Source of the DNA: an uncultured Pelagibacteraceae bacterium | GTDB taxonomy: Bacteria > Pseudomonadota > Alphaproteobacteria > Pelagibacterales > Pelagibacteraceae | Reading direction: 5' to 3' | Assembly (NCBI GenBank): GCA_902617975.1 | Contig: CACMYV010000005.1 | Span: 1-64,000 of the forward strand | DNA: 64,000 nucleotides | Shown here: piece after piece, positions 9,340-49,626 of the stretch | How the letters are laid out: each line of letters opens with the position of its first letter | Numbering within the stretch: the stretch's first letter is position 1 | Translations under genes and position numbers: made by a program | The notes under the pieces: generated by a model | Seen by the model: only the letters and a program-made list of their open reading frames with translations | What the model was told of the DNA's origin: nothing | The model's database searches: none

Positions 9340-10356
9340 ATGAATAAATTTAAATCAATTTATAAAGCTATTATTAGCTTAACATTTGTTTTTTCATTTG
9401 TTCTTACTTCAACAGCTGCTTTTTCAGAAATAGTTGGACGTTTATCTGTTCACTGGAGTCCGAAACACCATAGTGCAAAACATGCACAAATTTTTGCAGA
9501 TGAAGTTAACAAAAGAGCAAAAGGAAAATTAAAAATCGAAGTTTATCCATCTAAACAATTATTTGGAATTAGAGAAGTAATGGGAGCAGTAACTTCTGGT
9601 GCAGTTGAACTTGGAGGAATTGTTGGAGTAGTAAGTTTTCCACCAATTAATAAGAACTTTAATGTTGCTTCATTTCCAGGGTTATTTAATTCTTGGGAAC
9701 AACAAAGAGGTTTTTTTCAAAACTCACCAAAAGGAAAAGAAATTTGGGGTGAGTTAACTAAAAAAACTAATTCAACATTAGTTATGTATAACCCAGTTGG
9801 ACCTGTGATGACATTTTCTAGTGCTAAAGAATTAACAGGTATTGATGCTATGAAAGGTCTTAAGGCTAGAAGACTTTTAAAAAGTGAAGAACCAATGTGG
9901 GATGCTTTAGGAGCAAACAGAGTATCTTTGCCTACTGGAGAAGTTTATACATCTTTACAAACGGGAATGATTGATACAATAAACAGTCCTCCAGGAAGTA
10001 TTGAAGCATATAGCTGGTGGGAGTTTTTAAAATACGCTCAAAAGCCTTATCAGTATTATGCTGATGCATATATCATGGCAAACTCAACTTGGTTTAATAG
10101 TTTATCACCAGACTTACAAAAAATCATAATGGATGTTGGTAAAGAAGTTGGAAAACGATCAACTGACTTAATTATGGATACTGGAGAAAGTACTCTTAAA
10201 AAATTCCAAGAAAGAGGTGGAGTTGTTACTACACTTTCAGGGGCTGAAAAAGCTAAGTTTGATAAGCTTATGAAAGATGAAGTAATGCCAGCAATGGCTA
10301 AAATGATTGATGCTGACGCCTTAGAGGCAGCACAAGCATATGCTAAGAGCAATTAG
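9340..10356 (+). CDS. TRAP transporter solute-binding protein (DctP family)
   Basis: Periplasmic receptor of a tripartite ATP-independent transporter. The 338 residues begin with a signal peptide (about 1-30, ending TAAFS). The ligand region LKARRLLKSEEPMWDALGA, then LPTGEVYTSLQTGMID, carries the conserved Arg that usually contacts a substrate carboxylate, so an organic acid is likely; the exact ligand cannot be read from sequence. A good Shine-Dalgarno (GAGG at 9332-9335) precedes the ATG by 4 bases. It is the first gene of dctP-dctQ-dctM. A stem-loop follows its stop codon and may let it be expressed above the membrane subunits. Confidence 0.93.
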   Translation: MNKFKSIYKAIISLTFVFSFVLTSTAAFSEIVGRLSVHWSPKHHSAKHAQIFADEVNKRAKGKLKIEVYPSKQLFGIREVMGAVTSGAVELGGIVGVVSFPPINKNFNVASFPGLFNSWEQQRGFFQNSPKGKEIWGELTKKTNSTLVMYNPVGPVMTFSSAKELTGIDAMKGLKARRLLKSEEPMWDALGANRVSLPTGEVYTSLQTGMIDTINSPPGSIEAYSWWEFLKYAQKPYQYYADAYIMANSTWFNSLSPDLQKIIMDVGKEVGKRSTDLIMDTGESTLKKFQERGGVVTTLSGAEKAKFDKLMKDEVMPAMAKMIDADALEAAQAYAKSN

Positions 10357-10377
10357 AAGAAGTTAAACTTTTTCTAA
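10353..10377 (+). promoter_or_regulatory. Intercistronic stem-loop between dctP- and dctQ-type genes
   Basis: Bases 10353-10363 can pair with 10367-10377 in an 11-bp stem with one G-U pair and a 3-base loop. It starts at the binding-protein stop codon. The stem is followed by A-rich rather than T-rich sequence, so it is not a standard terminator. Hairpins in this position often stabilise the upstream binding-protein mRNA; that role is inferred here. Confidence 0.45.
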
Positions 10378-10384
10378 AAAGATT

Positions 10385-10879
10385 ATGAGGGCATTGCGAG
10401 CTATTAATAATTTGCTAGCAAAAGCTGCAATTTCGCTCGCAATGTTCATTGTCTTTTTAATGGTGGCAGCTTTAGCATTAAGTGCCACAACAAGATTTAT
10501 CACAGGTACAGGATTTGCGTGGTTTATTGAATTACCGCCTGTAATGGTGAGTTGGTTAGTATTTCCATTACTTGGTCCTTTATTAAAGCAAGGACAACAT
10601 ATTAAAGTAGACTTTTTAAGTCACTATTTATCAGAAAAATCAAAAAATATTATTGGAACAATCGTGAATTTAATTGCCTTAATTTCTGCATGCGTATTTT
10701 TTAAGGCAGGAGTTGATGCAACAACAATGTATTACAATTTAGGACAGATGATGGAATTAGAAATAAATATTCCTATCTGGTGGATGTTTTTAGCATTTCC
10801 AGTTGGTTTTTTAATTTTAGCATTAACTTCGTTAGAGCTTATTTTAGATAATTTAAAAAAACTTTTAGGAAAAGAATAA
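10385..10879 (+). CDS. TRAP transporter small membrane subunit (DctQ family)
   Basis: The 164-residue small permease subunit, with four predicted transmembrane helices at about residues 15-37, 50-70, 88-110 and 128-150. The WFIELPPVMVSWLVFPLLG segment and the following GQHIKVDF are typical for DctQ proteins. It joins the large DctM subunit to form the membrane part of the sodium-driven importer served by the upstream binding protein. Its stop is immediately followed by the ATG of dctM (no spacer). Confidence 0.92.
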   Translation: MRALRAINNLLAKAAISLAMFIVFLMVAALALSATTRFITGTGFAWFIELPPVMVSWLVFPLLGPLLKQGQHIKVDFLSHYLSEKSKNIIGTIVNLIALISACVFFKAGVDATTMYYNLGQMMELEINIPIWWMFLAFPVGFLILALTSLELILDNLKKLLGKE

Positions 10880-46223: not shown

Positions 46224-46880
46224 ATCTCTGTTAAAAACTTACTGAAAATTAACGAAAAAGTTAAGTCAAAGTTTGAAATAAGTAAAAATATATCTAATTT
46301 ACCGAAAATTATAGCAGTTTCTAAAACCTTTGAAATAAATCATATTTTACCCCTAATCAAACATGGACACATACATTACGGAGAAAATAAAGTTCAAGAA
46401 GCAAACCAAAAATGGAATGAAATTAAAAAAGAAAATAAAGATATAAAATTACATTTAATAGGTCGACTTCAAACTAATAAAGTTAAAATTGCTGTTAAGT
46501 TATTTGATTATATTCATTCTTTAGACAGCAAAAAACTCGCTGATAAAATTAACAAAGTTCAAAAGGAATTAAATTTAAAAACTAAATTATTTATTCAAGT
46601 CAATGTTGGAGATGAAAACCAAAAATCTGGAGTATCAATAGATAATGTTTTTGAATTTTATGATTATTGTTTAAATATAGACCTAAATATTATTGGTCTA
46701 ATGTGTATACCACCATTTAATCAGGATCCAATAAAATTCTTTAAGAAAATGAATGATTTAAATAATCGATTAGGATTAAATGAATTAAGCATGGGCATGT
46801 CATCTGATTACATAGATGCAGTAGGGTATGGATCAACATTTTTGAGAATTGGCACAAGTATTTTTGGCGAGAGAGGTTAA
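46218..46880 (+). CDS. YggS/PLPBP family pyridoxal-phosphate-binding protein
   Basis: PLP homeostasis protein without a known catalytic reaction. K36 in IIAVSKTFE is the PLP Schiff-base lysine. HYGENKVQEANQKW near 54-67, HLIGRLQTNK near 78-87, LSMGMSSDYIDAV and GSTFLRIGTSIFG near the end are diagnostic. The 220 residues match the family. It starts in the same 6 bp as the ThiE-like gene and overlaps the convergent L,D-transpeptidase gene by 4 bp. Confidence 0.95.
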   Translation: MHISVKNLLKINEKVKSKFEISKNISNLPKIIAVSKTFEINHILPLIKHGHIHYGENKVQEANQKWNEIKKENKDIKLHLIGRLQTNKVKIAVKLFDYIHSLDSKKLADKINKVQKELNLKTKLFIQVNVGDENQKSGVSIDNVFEFYDYCLNIDLNIIGLMCIPPFNQDPIKFFKKMNDLNNRLGLNELSMGMSSDYIDAVGYGSTFLRIGTSIFGERG

Positions 46881-47371
46881 AGAATTTTAATTTTGGTTTT
46901 TTTGTTGATTAATTTTACTAAAATAAGAAAGTCTTTTTCAGAGATACCTATACATCCAGCTGTTGGTTTATAATTTTTAGTTAAGTGTATAAAAATTGCA
47001 CTTCCTTTTCCTTTTTTTACGTTATCCCAATTATATTTTATTGGTATTAAATAATCGTATTTATAATCTGTTCTAAATAATTTTTCTCCATTCTCATTTA
47101 AATCTAGATTAATTAATTTATTATAATTAAGTTTTGAATTTGGATTATTACACCATCCCATATTTTTCCTTATTTTTACTAATTTTAATTTTGTCTCAGG
47201 TTTAGTTTTTCTATCTTCCCTAAAGTAAAGGTTTTCCAAGGCAAATTTACCTGTTGGAGTTTTTTTATCTCCTTCGATTTTTTTATTAGAAAATCCGTAC
47301 TTTCCAATACAACACTTAAAAACAAAATCATCATATATAAGCGTATCTTTATTTTTTATTAATATTATCAT
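46877..47371 (-). CDS. L,D-transpeptidase (YkuD) domain protein
   Basis: A 164-residue YkuD-type domain protein that could cross-link or trim peptidoglycan peptides. The TPTGKF motif at about 38-43, conserved H129 in IFIHL and catalytic C140 in PTAGCIGIS mark the subfamily in which the usual Arg after Cys is replaced. No signal peptide is evident (MIILIKNKDTLIYDD), so export is unclear. It diverges from the winged-helix gene across only 11 bp. Confidence 0.85.
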   Translation of the reverse strand: MIILIKNKDTLIYDDFVFKCCIGKYGFSNKKIEGDKKTPTGKFALENLYFREDRKTKPETKLKLVKIRKNMGWCNNPNSKLNYNKLINLDLNENGEKLFRTDYKYDYLIPIKYNWDNVKKGKGSAIFIHLTKNYKPTAGCIGISEKDFLILVKLINKKTKIKIL

Positions 47372-47382
47372 ATTGTACCTTT

Positions 47383-47946
47383 ATGAGCGTAAACCAATCA
47401 TTAATAATTTATAAATTTCCAATTTTGTTTAACATACTAAATGAAATAAGAAGTAAATTAAATTTTAAAATAATTTATTACGATAATAAGGATTTTAATA
47501 ATTTTCTAGATACAACAAATGCCGTTGTAATTTCTGGCGAAAAAAAAAATGTAGTTAAAAACCAGATAAAGATATCTGAATACCCAATAAATATTCAAAA
47601 ATTGATAGAAATAATTAACATTCAGTTTTTAAAAAATAAATTTAATCAACAAATTAACATTAAAGCAGGTAAATATTTTATAAATTTAAATTCCAGAGAA
47701 ATGAAATATAATGATCAAATTTTACAAATAACTGAAAAAGAACTAAAAATAATAAATTTTTTAAACTCTTCAAAGGGACCTGTCTCTATAAGTAAGCTAC
47801 AATCAGAGGTCTGGGGATACAATTCAACACTCGAAACTCATACAGTCGAGACACATGTTTATAGACTTAGAAAAAAAGTTGAAAAAAAATTCAAAGATAA
47901 AGCATTTATAGTTAGTTTAAAAAATGGGTACAAAATCGAAACTTAA
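47383..47946 (+). CDS. OmpR/PhoB-type winged-helix protein with degenerate receiver-like N-terminus
   Basis: A 187-residue predicted DNA-binding protein. The C-terminal half (about 95-187) is an OmpR-type winged helix: ITEKELKIINFLNSSKG, SKLQSEVWGY, HTVETHVYRLRKKVEKKF (recognition helix) and IVSLKNGYKIE. The N-terminal 90 residues resemble a truncated receiver in strand and helix pattern but lack an obvious phosphoacceptor Asp, so phosphorylation control is unlikely. No partner kinase is nearby. The 42-residue ArfA-like gene starts inside its last 23 bp. Confidence 0.82.
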   Translation: MSVNQSLIIYKFPILFNILNEIRSKLNFKIIYYDNKDFNNFLDTTNAVVISGEKKNVVKNQIKISEYPINIQKLIEIINIQFLKNKFNQQINIKAGKYFINLNSREMKYNDQILQITEKELKIINFLNSSKGPVSISKLQSEVWGYNSTLETHTVETHVYRLRKKVEKKFKDKAFIVSLKNGYKIET

Positions 47947-48052
47947 AAAAAATCAATACGCGAAGGATCTATTTTCAAGAAAGTATAAGCCTAGAGTGGT
48001 AAAACCAAAAAAAGGAAAAGGTAGCTTCTCGAGGAAAAATCCTAAAGTCTAG
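47924..48052 (+). CDS. Small ArfA-like ribosome-rescue factor candidate (42 residues)
   Basis: A short, strongly basic protein beginning ATG GGT ACA. The segment DLFSRKYKPRVVKPKKGKGS followed by FSRKN resembles the ribosome-binding core of E. coli ArfA (LF...R...KKGKGSYMRK). ArfA recruits release factor 2 to ribosomes stalled without a stop codon. The E. coli hydrophobic C-terminal tail is absent, and the gene ends soon after the core. It overlaps the winged-helix gene by 23 bp and the convergent PfkB kinase gene by 11 bp. No separate promoter is visible. Function is inferred from the motif only. Confidence 0.6.
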   Translation: MGTKSKLKKNQYAKDLFSRKYKPRVVKPKKGKGSFSRKNPKV

Positions 48053-48971
48053 CCCCAATTTTTTGAATAACTTGGGATGACATTTCTCTTCCCTTATTAA
48101 GATTTTCTAAATTACTAAGACCTCTTAAATATCCATGCAAAAATCCGGCAGCAAATAAATCTCCTGCACCAGTAAGATCTTTAATACTTAAGTTTTTTTC
48201 AACATCATTTTCTACCACTTCATCACCCAAAATTGATACTGCTCCTTTTTCTCCTCTAGTTATTACAACTAGTTTGTTTAAATTTTTTCCAAACTCAATT
48301 ACATCTTTAAAATCTTTGGCATCAATCAATGACATCATTTCTTGTTCATTTGCAAATGTAATATCTAATTTGTTTTTTACTAAATCTAAAAAATGTGGTT
48401 TGTGTCTGTCAACACAAAATTGATCTGATAGAGACATGGCAACTTTTTTTGCATAATTAATTGATTTTTCAAACGCTTTTTTAGGTTCACCCTCATCCCA
48501 TAAATAACCTTCTAAAAATATCATTTCTGATTGTTTTACAACGTCAGTATCAACATCGTTTTCATTAATTTTTCCTGCAGTACCAAGGAATGTACACATT
48601 GTTCTTTCTGAATCTGGAGTTACTAAAATTAAACAAGTCCCGGTTGGTAATTTTTCTTTTTTTTTAGAGTAAAAAAACTCTACGTTCTCAGACTTTAAAC
48701 CAGATTCGTATTTACTCCCTAAAGCGTCATTACTCACTTTTCCAATAAATCCCACTTTATTACCTAGCTGAGATAAACCAACAATAGAATTTGCTACTGA
48801 TCCACCCGATATAGTTTTTTCGATATTTAGATTTGATAGCATTGATTTAAATTCTTTATCATCAAAAATAAGTTTCATCGTTCCTTTTGTTAAATTATTT
48901 TGATCAATAAAGTTTTCATCGACTTTACAAATTACGTCTACAATAGCATTTCCAATTCCCAAAATTTCCAT
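48042..48971 (-). CDS. PfkB family carbohydrate/adenosine kinase
   Basis: A 309-residue ribokinase-fold kinase. The N-terminal MEILGIGNAIVDVICKVDENF and ISGGSVANSIVGLSQLG near 59-75 resemble adenosine kinase and related enzymes. The catalytic motif DLTGAGDLFAAGFLHG near 263 carries the anion hole and base Asp. The start is the ATG at 48971; a longer frame reaching 49079 would run into nth. It follows nth by 1 bp. The preferred sugar is not fixed by sequence, although adenosine kinase-like is the best fit. Confidence 0.88.
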   Translation of the reverse strand: MEILGIGNAIVDVICKVDENFIDQNNLTKGTMKLIFDDKEFKSMLSNLNIEKTISGGSVANSIVGLSQLGNKVGFIGKVSNDALGSKYESGLKSENVEFFYSKKKEKLPTGTCLILVTPDSERTMCTFLGTAGKINENDVDTDVVKQSEMIFLEGYLWDEGEPKKAFEKSINYAKKVAMSLSDQFCVDRHKPHFLDLVKNKLDITFANEQEMMSLIDAKDFKDVIEFGKNLNKLVVITRGEKGAVSILGDEVVENDVEKNLSIKDLTGAGDLFAAGFLHGYLRGLSNLENLNKGREMSSQVIQKIGARL

Positions 48972-48972
48972 T

Positions 48973-49626
48973 TTAAGCTTTCTTTGTTTTAATTGGTTTT
49001 TTTCTTTTAGGATAACAAGAAGTACAAATTTTACAAGAAATACCGTAACACTCTCTAGCTTTACAATATTCTCTTCCATAATAAATTATTTGAAGATGAA
49101 GTTTGTTCCAATATTTTTTTGGAAATAAACGCTTTAAATCTTTCTCCGTTTGGACAACACTTTTTCCATTAGTTAAACCCCAACGTTGGGCAAGTCTGTG
49201 TATATGTGTATCAATTGGAAATGCTGGATAGCCAAAACCTTGAGACATTACTACACTTGCTGTTTTGTGACCAACACCGGGCAATTCCTCTAATTCATCA
49301 AAAGTCTTTGGAACTCTACCATTATATTTTTCAACTAGAGTTTTTGAAAGATTGTAAATACTTTTAGCTTTAATTCTAAAAATTCCAATACTTTTGATTA
49401 ATTTTTCAATTTTCTTTCTACCAAGTTTTACAAAATGGTCTGGTTTATTATATTTTGGATAAATATTTTTGGTAACATTGTTAACATTTACATCTGTACA
49501 TTGAGCTGAAAGCAAAACAGATATTAAAAGTGTGAATATATTTCTATGTTTTAATGGTATAGGTGTTTTTGGATAGGTTTTATTCAGTATTCTTAAAACT
49601 ATTTTGGCTCTTTGAAATTCATTCAT
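48973..49626 (-). CDS. nth: Endonuclease III (DNA glycosylase/AP lyase)
   Basis: Base-excision repair enzyme for oxidised pyrimidines. The helix-hairpin-helix LPGVGHKTASVV has catalytic K121, and the aspartate D139 lies in PIDTHIHRL. The 217 residues match the family. The C-terminal cysteine cluster is unusual: C188, C193, C198, C201 and C204, rather than the standard C-x6-C-x2-C-x5-C iron-sulfur ligand set. It overlaps the dapB stop by one base and precedes the PfkB gene. Confidence 0.93.
   Translation of the reverse strand: MNEFQRAKIVLRILNKTYPKTPIPLKHRNIFTLLISVLLSAQCTDVNVNNVTKNIYPKYNKPDHFVKLGRKKIEKLIKSIGIFRIKAKSIYNLSKTLVEKYNGRVPKTFDELEELPGVGHKTASVVMSQGFGYPAFPIDTHIHRLAQRWGLTNGKSVVQTEKDLKRLFPKKYWNKLHLQIIYYGREYCKARECYGISCKICTSCYPKRKKPIKTKKA

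Follow-up and report, generated by a model that had tools for sequence, protein, structure and literature searches.

The KGKGS motif of ArfA has a role in the empty mRNA channel (PMC6299226), and the role of the ArfA C-terminus is described in PMC5378476, according to which the E. coli protein is active when cut at Asn47 and inactive when cut after Met40. The same account has residues L19, L24 and F25 touching release factor 2 (RF2) and the A18T variant inactive. In the cited section of a review, ArfA is limited to part of the Beta- and Gammaproteobacteria (PMC8012679), and the cited part of a survey of 15,259 genomes by DNA profiles gives ArfA in 0 of 2,376 Alphaproteobacteria and ArfB as common in that class (2,022/2,376; PMC11633108). 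No paper on a chromosomal SAR11 arfA was recognised in the parts of the open-licence PMC literature that were covered. Here we describe an ArfA-like gene in a window of 64,000 nucleotides (the whole stretch of DNA that was analysed) from a 1.07-Mb draft genome, 77% complete, of an uncultured Pelagibacteraceae bacterium.

A 42-codon ArfA-like gene overlapping both neighbours

The gene, its two halves and its neighbours are arranged as follows.

47383..47946, plus strand: upstream gene, 187 aa, with a C-terminal winged-helix domain Trans_reg_C (PF00486; Pfam 46.7 bits), response-regulator-like
47924..48052, plus strand: arfA-like gene, 42 aa, ATG start, TAG stop (open reading frame, PF03889, conserved frame)
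47951..47998, plus strand: N-terminal half, residues 10-25 (NQYAKDLFSRKYKPRV), putative RF2-activating part (alignment of 27 sequences, match to 5h5u_3)
48002..48049, plus strand: C-terminal half, residues 27-42 (KPKKGKGSFSRKNPKV), putative mRNA-channel-binding basic part with the invariant KKGKGS
48042..48971, minus strand: convergent gene for a pfkB-family sugar kinase, 309 aa when read from an internal start (the longest ORF, 48042-49079, matches PF00294 at 140.2 bits)

The frame at 47924..48052 translates as MGTKSKLKKNQYAKDLFSRKYKPRVVKPKKGKGSFSRKNPKV. As the sequence-only reading had described it, this 42-codon frame lies in a double overlap, and the lengths given there are exact: 23 bp with the upstream gene (47383..47946, plus strand) and 11 bp with the convergent frame (48042..49079, minus strand). 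The proposed likeness to ArfA was borne out by a Pfam search, in which the ArfA family PF03889 matched at 27.5 bits (E 2.2e-6) and passed the gathering cut-off of 25.5. A ribosomal or unrelated basic family had been named as the finding that would speak against the proposal; ArfA was the sole Pfam family up to E 1. When the PDB was searched by phmmer with the 42 residues, six sequences were returned at E up to 10, every one of them named ArfA (E 0.0037-0.012). The alignment runs without gaps over query residues 3-39, which correspond to residues 7-43 of the 72-residue chain 5h5u_3 (offset +4). There was no match in NCBIfam, and the PHROGs scan gave a single unnamed family at E 0.16. In an alignment of 27 sequences, N10, K14, L16, K29-S34 and R37 are invariant and K8, Y21, K22 and K27 nearly so; measured against these positions, the motif first used to recognise the protein was worded slightly loosely, and the ArfA-like core that it pointed to stands. 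An ArfA-like peptide is expected to fold only on the ribosome.

In the window, the coding sequence ends with a TAG stop after the basic tail. A search of 46850-48350 gave no terminator-like site, and there is no unusual fold at the 3' end (z -0.54 and 0.86 in the window; -0.64 to 0.87 over five stretches taken from the window and three relatives). Control by an RNA element at the 3' end of arfA was also considered and was dropped on these grounds, the 64-kb stretch holding no Rfam family except one tRNA. These observations agree with the earlier remark that an ordinary stop leaves no control through truncated mRNA. There is no sign of E. coli-type control, in which a hairpin or terminator yields a non-stop message and the tail is hydrophobic and degradable; this concerns the mode of control and not rescue activity.

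Conservation, presence and absence in SAR11

A set of 138 matching Pelagibacteraceae loci was gathered, at least 10 pairs among them being one genome represented twice. The frame is intact in all 138 (134 parsed by regular expression and 4 read by eye, one of which, L028, has KGRGS instead of KGKGS); because the loci were chosen by matching, this figure measures frame intactness and not prevalence. The 134 parsed cores comprise 123 distinct DNA and 104 distinct protein sequences. Pooled pN/pS over these loci is 0.19 (0.188) in frame versus 1.20-1.85 in shifted frames, values that are indicative, since pS (0.68) approaches saturation and the loci are not independent of one another. Stops occur in 0/134 cores in frame and in 113/134 or 134/134 in the shifted frames. 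The arfA-like frame is under purifying selection, and its conservation across SAR11, on which the sequence-only reading had let the gene stand or fall, was observed. By the rule applied, the start codon is ATG in 116 loci, TTG in 12 and GTG in 6.

The surroundings of the gene are likewise kept. In the first 28 loci, the regulator gene lies upstream in 28/28 and the YkuD gene in 26/28; over all 134, the regulator lies upstream on the same strand in 131. It overlaps arfA by at least 1 bp in 120 of these 131, abuts it in 5 and is separated from it in 6. Because the arfA start usually overlaps the upstream gene, arfA is probably translationally coupled to it. Pfam reported no receiver domain in the regulator of the window (47383..47946). 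A convergent pfkB gene follows in 127/134 loci, its end ranging from a 17-bp gap to a 36-bp overlap in 118 of them, with a gap of 423-620 bp in the other 9.

PF03889 matched 28 of 61 genomes (the source genome and relatives), 19 of them over the cut-off, including the source genome; the other nine of the 28 miss it. All 28 belong to the source genus (28/37), and family f2 of the same order gave 0/24. A profile built from 27 proteins of the genus matched 219 of 298 genomes of the order, in 10 of 11 genera (116/150 among genomes at least 90% complete). For 210 of the 219, the match had E 1.3e-8 or better or was ranked between listed ones of that kind; the remaining nine were weak (E 3e-5 to 5e-4; seven in family f2, two in genus g6), and the seven of these nine that were read lack KGKGS. 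Excluding weak matches leaves 210 genomes in 7 genera, all in the source family. In a genome collection, at least 428 of 597 candidate stretches were confirmed, and the 80 named loci kept are assigned to Pelagibacteraceae, Pelagibacterales or Candidatus Pelagibacter, which confirms that the DNA of the window is from SAR11. The notion of a minimal ArfA in a streamlined alphaproteobacterium is upheld as regards a short ArfA in SAR11 and does not hold as a peculiarity of one genome, the gene being widespread in Pelagibacteraceae and short forms occurring in phages.

Elsewhere in Alphaproteobacteria, ArfA is sporadic. In a sample of the class, PF03889 matched 9/372 genomes, 7 of them outside the source family, and the SAR11 profile at E 0.01 matched 19/385, three in the source family; in a sample of the phylum, 42/369 matched. 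The short proteins of family f2 and genus g6 (L232-L240) have the ArfA N-terminal half, NPIAKELRTxKFK, with Lys-rich tails replacing KGKGS. Their profile resembles the SAR11 profile with a probability of 96.8% (E 2.3e-10), a likeness that is partly circular because these proteins had been found as weak matches of the SAR11 profile. They may be rescue factors that have diverged, or the RF2-binding half may serve another purpose in them. DUF7230 was tried as a wider family home and dropped, being rare in the class (3/289); when diverged relatives were scanned for it, one lay exactly at the cut-off and three below.

Nine genomes of the source genus gave no profile match, and in these the regulator is directly followed by pfkB with no arfA between. 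Four of them are single contigs at 99% completeness. There was no residual match at E 1 in 6/9; the other three gave only stretches at E 0.06-0.18 that lie within large genes or in frames of 15 codons. The regulator gene is retained in all nine. Mapped on a tree of pfkB proteins (79 rows), the absence of arfA requires 3 changes, and well supported branches force at least 2 of these; G061 and G065 were scored as carriers, the gene being elsewhere in both and present only in diverged form in G065. As carriers dominate, the clean absences are read as losses, and they indicate that the gene is dispensable.

G066, which is among these nine genomes, consists of one contig of 1,308,759 bases. It has a tmRNA at 10219-10520, a glycine riboswitch at 649787-649876 and an SRP RNA at 493568-493660 (37.5 bits, cut-off 40). 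These fall at the intergenic regions 10302-10518, 649763-649953 and 493521-493664 tabulated for 'Cand. P. ubique' (PMC2704228), for which reason G066 was taken as HTCC1062; the tmRNA exceeds the tabulated region because a neighbouring gene was misannotated, as stated in that table's source. In G066 and in G067, arfA is absent at the locus (L305, L306, L252, L259) and there is no profile match at E 1. Work on strains such as HTCC1062 would miss arfA.

Other rescue components were counted in the 61 genomes. A tmRNA scored over the cut-off in 49/61 and SmpB in 54/61; both were matched in 18/18 genomes at least 90% complete. The RF-1 family, which includes RF1, RF2 and ArfB, gave at most two matches in 60/61 genomes, many of them drafts, so that no clear ArfB was seen. 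The frames concerned are nearly all of 338-378 codons, the exceptions being G060 (265 and 223) and G044 (5795), with G007 apart (three matches, in frames of 363, 267 and 151 codons); in the other 60 genomes, no RF-type match lay in a frame shorter than 223 codons. In G044 (family f2), the release-factor domain at G044:C1:87605-87934 sits in a frame of 5795 codons versus about 356 in relatives, perhaps through a stretch of N. The RF2 of the source genome (L284:981-1802), aligned to PDB RF2 chains, keeps SPF, GGQ, the switch-loop Trp and F217 and has Ile for V198. In E. coli, V198, F217 and the other kept residues contact ArfA, as described in PMC5378476 and PMC6299226.

Relatives in marine phages

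At least 156 relatives were confirmed among the 600 candidate stretches listed from IMG/VR, and 80 loci were kept. The ORF was parsed in 70/80: 55 are of 29-69 aa and 15 have a long C-terminal extension. K or R stands at the position of E. coli A18 in 60/70. In L111, the arfA-like ORF adjoins endolysin and tail-fibre genes. The ArfA core is found inside a phage protein of 117-142 aa in L144, L146, L153-L155, L158, L160 (cut by the contig end), L167, L174, L179, L181-L183, L186 and L187. In the three extended forms that were scanned, the C-terminal part matches PHROG 17747, and in HMO-2011 this part is present without the ArfA core. One extended form (L183) lies about 3.8 kb after a major head gene. 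Judging from these sequences, the extended form is possibly a virion-associated ArfA.

Among cultured phages, tblastn with the 42-aa protein of the window found nothing, perhaps because of the low-complexity filter. A longer viral form used as the query found twelve records, with HTVC027P at E 2e-14 and the others at E 4e-5 to 0.8, mostly weak, in phages of Roseobacter, Caulobacter, Brevundimonas, Erythrobacter, Citromicrobium and Microcystis. Gp30 of HTVC027P is 58 aa long, with an N-terminal extension and a core containing KGRGS, and its 20.2 bits lie below the Pfam cut-off. In the cited part of PMC12753301, an HTVC027P protein is labelled ArfA and highly expressed early and late in infection. 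The novelty that had been suggested is narrowed by this label: the chromosomal SAR11 form appears new in the literature covered, and the ArfA label on a pelagiphage protein was already published (PMC12753301). Citromicrobium phage RXM g10 is likewise named ArfA (PMC8953757), and a 36-aa gene of Brevundimonas phage Kikimora is annotated as 'alternative ribosome-rescue factor'. In Roseobacter phage CRP-212 (MZ892988), a 41-aa ArfA-like ORF (L301:589-714) is placed in another frame inside the annotated large gp38, where it is hidden from gene callers.

These relatives raise an alternative that is compatible with the reading preferred below: that the gene was acquired from or is shared with marine phages and mainly serves the cell during infection or when trans-translation cannot keep up, rather than as a routine backup. 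The number of viral relatives speaks for it, as does HTVC027P, which carries ArfA and infects HTCC1062, itself without arfA. In a tree of 101 cores over 30 columns, ArfA of other classes forms one group (96%); outside it, host and viral cores are intermingled in the best tree. However, this mixing is without support, hosts may be one group, and the tree was dropped as a test of the direction of transfer, be it from host to phage or from phage to host. Against exchange stand also the fixed chromosomal locus in most carriers and the five SAR11 neighbour genes, which occur in 0/80 of the viral loci kept. We consider phage exchange, as the reason why the gene is kept, to be unlikely and still the best placed of the alternatives.

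A probable minimal ArfA among known rescue factors

The 42-aa protein ends at the equivalent of E. coli ArfA residue 46 and most relatives end at 44; these end points fall inside a doubtful zone between Met40 and Asn47. In the 134 hosts, 5-17 residues follow KKGKGS (6 in 78). The A18 position (K14 in the window) holds Lys in 133 hosts and Arg in one; at the F25 position (Y21 in the window), 130 have Tyr and 4 have Phe. The hydrophobic and here aromatic residue suited to the V198/F217 pocket of RF2 is present, RF2 having Ile and Phe at these places. The L19 and L24 contacts correspond to D15 and K20, and both positions also vary in ArfAs of other classes (e.g. L340, L341). The same residue parsing was applied to 38 loci from the class and phylum samples, of which 28 could be parsed and 10 could not. 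At A18, 20 of the 23 parsed ArfAs of other classes have A and 3 have S, and their open frames run on for 16-49 residues past KKGKGS; of the five parsed alphaproteobacterial relatives, one (G061, another genus of the source family) has E, two R and two A. On the sequences compared, K/R at A18 characterises the genus-level set and most viral forms but does not extend to the class as a whole, and the pattern of D15, K20 and K14 appears to mark an ArfA sub-type.

With K for A18, RF2 activation may differ from that in E. coli, and an ArfT-like rescue factor, which would be short and stop-terminated and would recruit RF1 as well as RF2, has to be weighed. ArfT of Francisella belongs to the same size class, a 40-aa ORF often missed in annotation, with a basic C-terminus and no control like that of E. 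coli arfA, in the description given by PMC6299226. By the same description, however, ArfT is without a hydrophobic residue at F25 and has a KKGGSTNKK tail, whereas SAR11 hosts have Tyr or Phe in 134/134 and the 42-aa protein has Y21, an exact KKGKGS and a Pfam ArfA score over the cut-off; an ArfT-kind factor is decidedly improbable. Somewhat more improbable still is a peptide that resembles ArfA through its lysines but has no rescue function, being instead ribosomal or a basic RNA binder. The protein is indeed Lys-rich and short, and several E. coli contacts are missing, but the gapless alignment of 37 residues includes the non-basic N, L, aromatic, G and S positions, no other Pfam family was found, and PF03889 at E 1e-3 occurs in 0/24 genomes of family f2 and in E. 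coli alone of 14 control genomes. That a short ORF overlapping both neighbours arose there by chance and is no gene is refuted by frame conservation, with purifying selection specific to the frame, 123 distinct and stop-free DNA cores among 134, and the whole unit missing, not decayed, in nine genomes.

We conclude, with a probability of about 0.85, that the 42-aa gene is a genuine minimal ArfA, for which comparison of sequences suggests RF2-dependent rescue as the most likely function. When a ribosome has stalled at the 3' end of an mRNA that has no stop codon, the empty mRNA channel would be occupied by the basic tail KPKKGKGSFSRK. The N10-V25 segment, in which Y21 takes the position of E. 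coli F25, would recruit and open RF2, and the GGQ motif of the opened RF2 would hydrolyse the peptidyl-tRNA. The ArfA route would provide a second, tag-free rescue beside tmRNA-SmpB in a group with no clear ArfB. Given the ordinary stop, the lack of a terminator-like site or unusual fold and the overlapping start, the supply of arfA is probably constitutive and translationally coupled. Against the conclusion count K14 for A18, the missing L19 and L24 contacts, the short tail, the lack of an NCBIfam match, the nine of 28 genus matches that fall below the Pfam cut-off, and dispensability.

A wider scenario is offered tentatively, and as a whole it is rather doubtful. SAR11 and marine phages would share a distinct minimal ArfA sub-type, mostly with K/R at A18 and with host tails ending just past KGKGS, that opens RF2 by another N-terminal packing. 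It would be the sole backup that the group has to trans-translation, supplied constitutively via coupling; it would have been lost in lineages including HTCC1062 and returned by phages, e.g. HTVC027P, on infection. One phage group would embed ArfA in a protein encoded near capsid genes, possibly so as to enter with the DNA.

If the gene is a minimal ArfA, many members of a very abundant group of ocean bacteria carry this factor, which is easy to miss in so small an ORF that overlaps both neighbours. It would offer a natural minimal ArfA for testing which residues are needed in RF2 activation, and would allow a direct comparison of host lineages that have a backup rescue route, lineages that lack it, and a phage supplying one.

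Among described systems, BrfA of Bacillus subtilis is, by description, likewise an RF2-dependent rescue peptide; it has a distinct sequence and shares the regulatory mechanism of ArfA (PMC8012679). ArfB (YaeJ) belongs to the same class of role, that of a backup rescue factor, but has its own RF1-like catalytic domain (PMC6299226), whereas the 42-aa protein has no GGQ. The phage ArfAs (HTVC027P gp30, RXM g10, Kikimora) resemble the SAR11 protein as short, stop-terminated forms, mostly with K/R at A18, and differ in lying in phage neighbourhoods instead of the SAR11 locus. With ArfA of E. coli (YhdL) and other Beta- and Gammaproteobacteria, the SAR11 protein shares the core N.....L....[FY]...V.K.KKGKGS, gapless over 37 residues, an RF2 with the ArfA-contact residues and coexistence with tmRNA-SmpB. 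It differs in size (about 70 aa in most organisms for classical ArfA, PMC5378476; 34-49 aa from the chosen start, mostly 35, in the 134 loci), in the tail past KKGKGS (16-49 residues in classical ArfA, most often 6 in SAR11), in K/R for A18, in its ordinary stop, in a start overlapping the upstream gene, and in being chromosomal and widespread in an alphaproteobacterial family. As judged from its sequence, SAR11 arfA is a minimal, stop-terminated variant of arfA, mostly with K/R at A18, widespread and related to the forms of marine phages.
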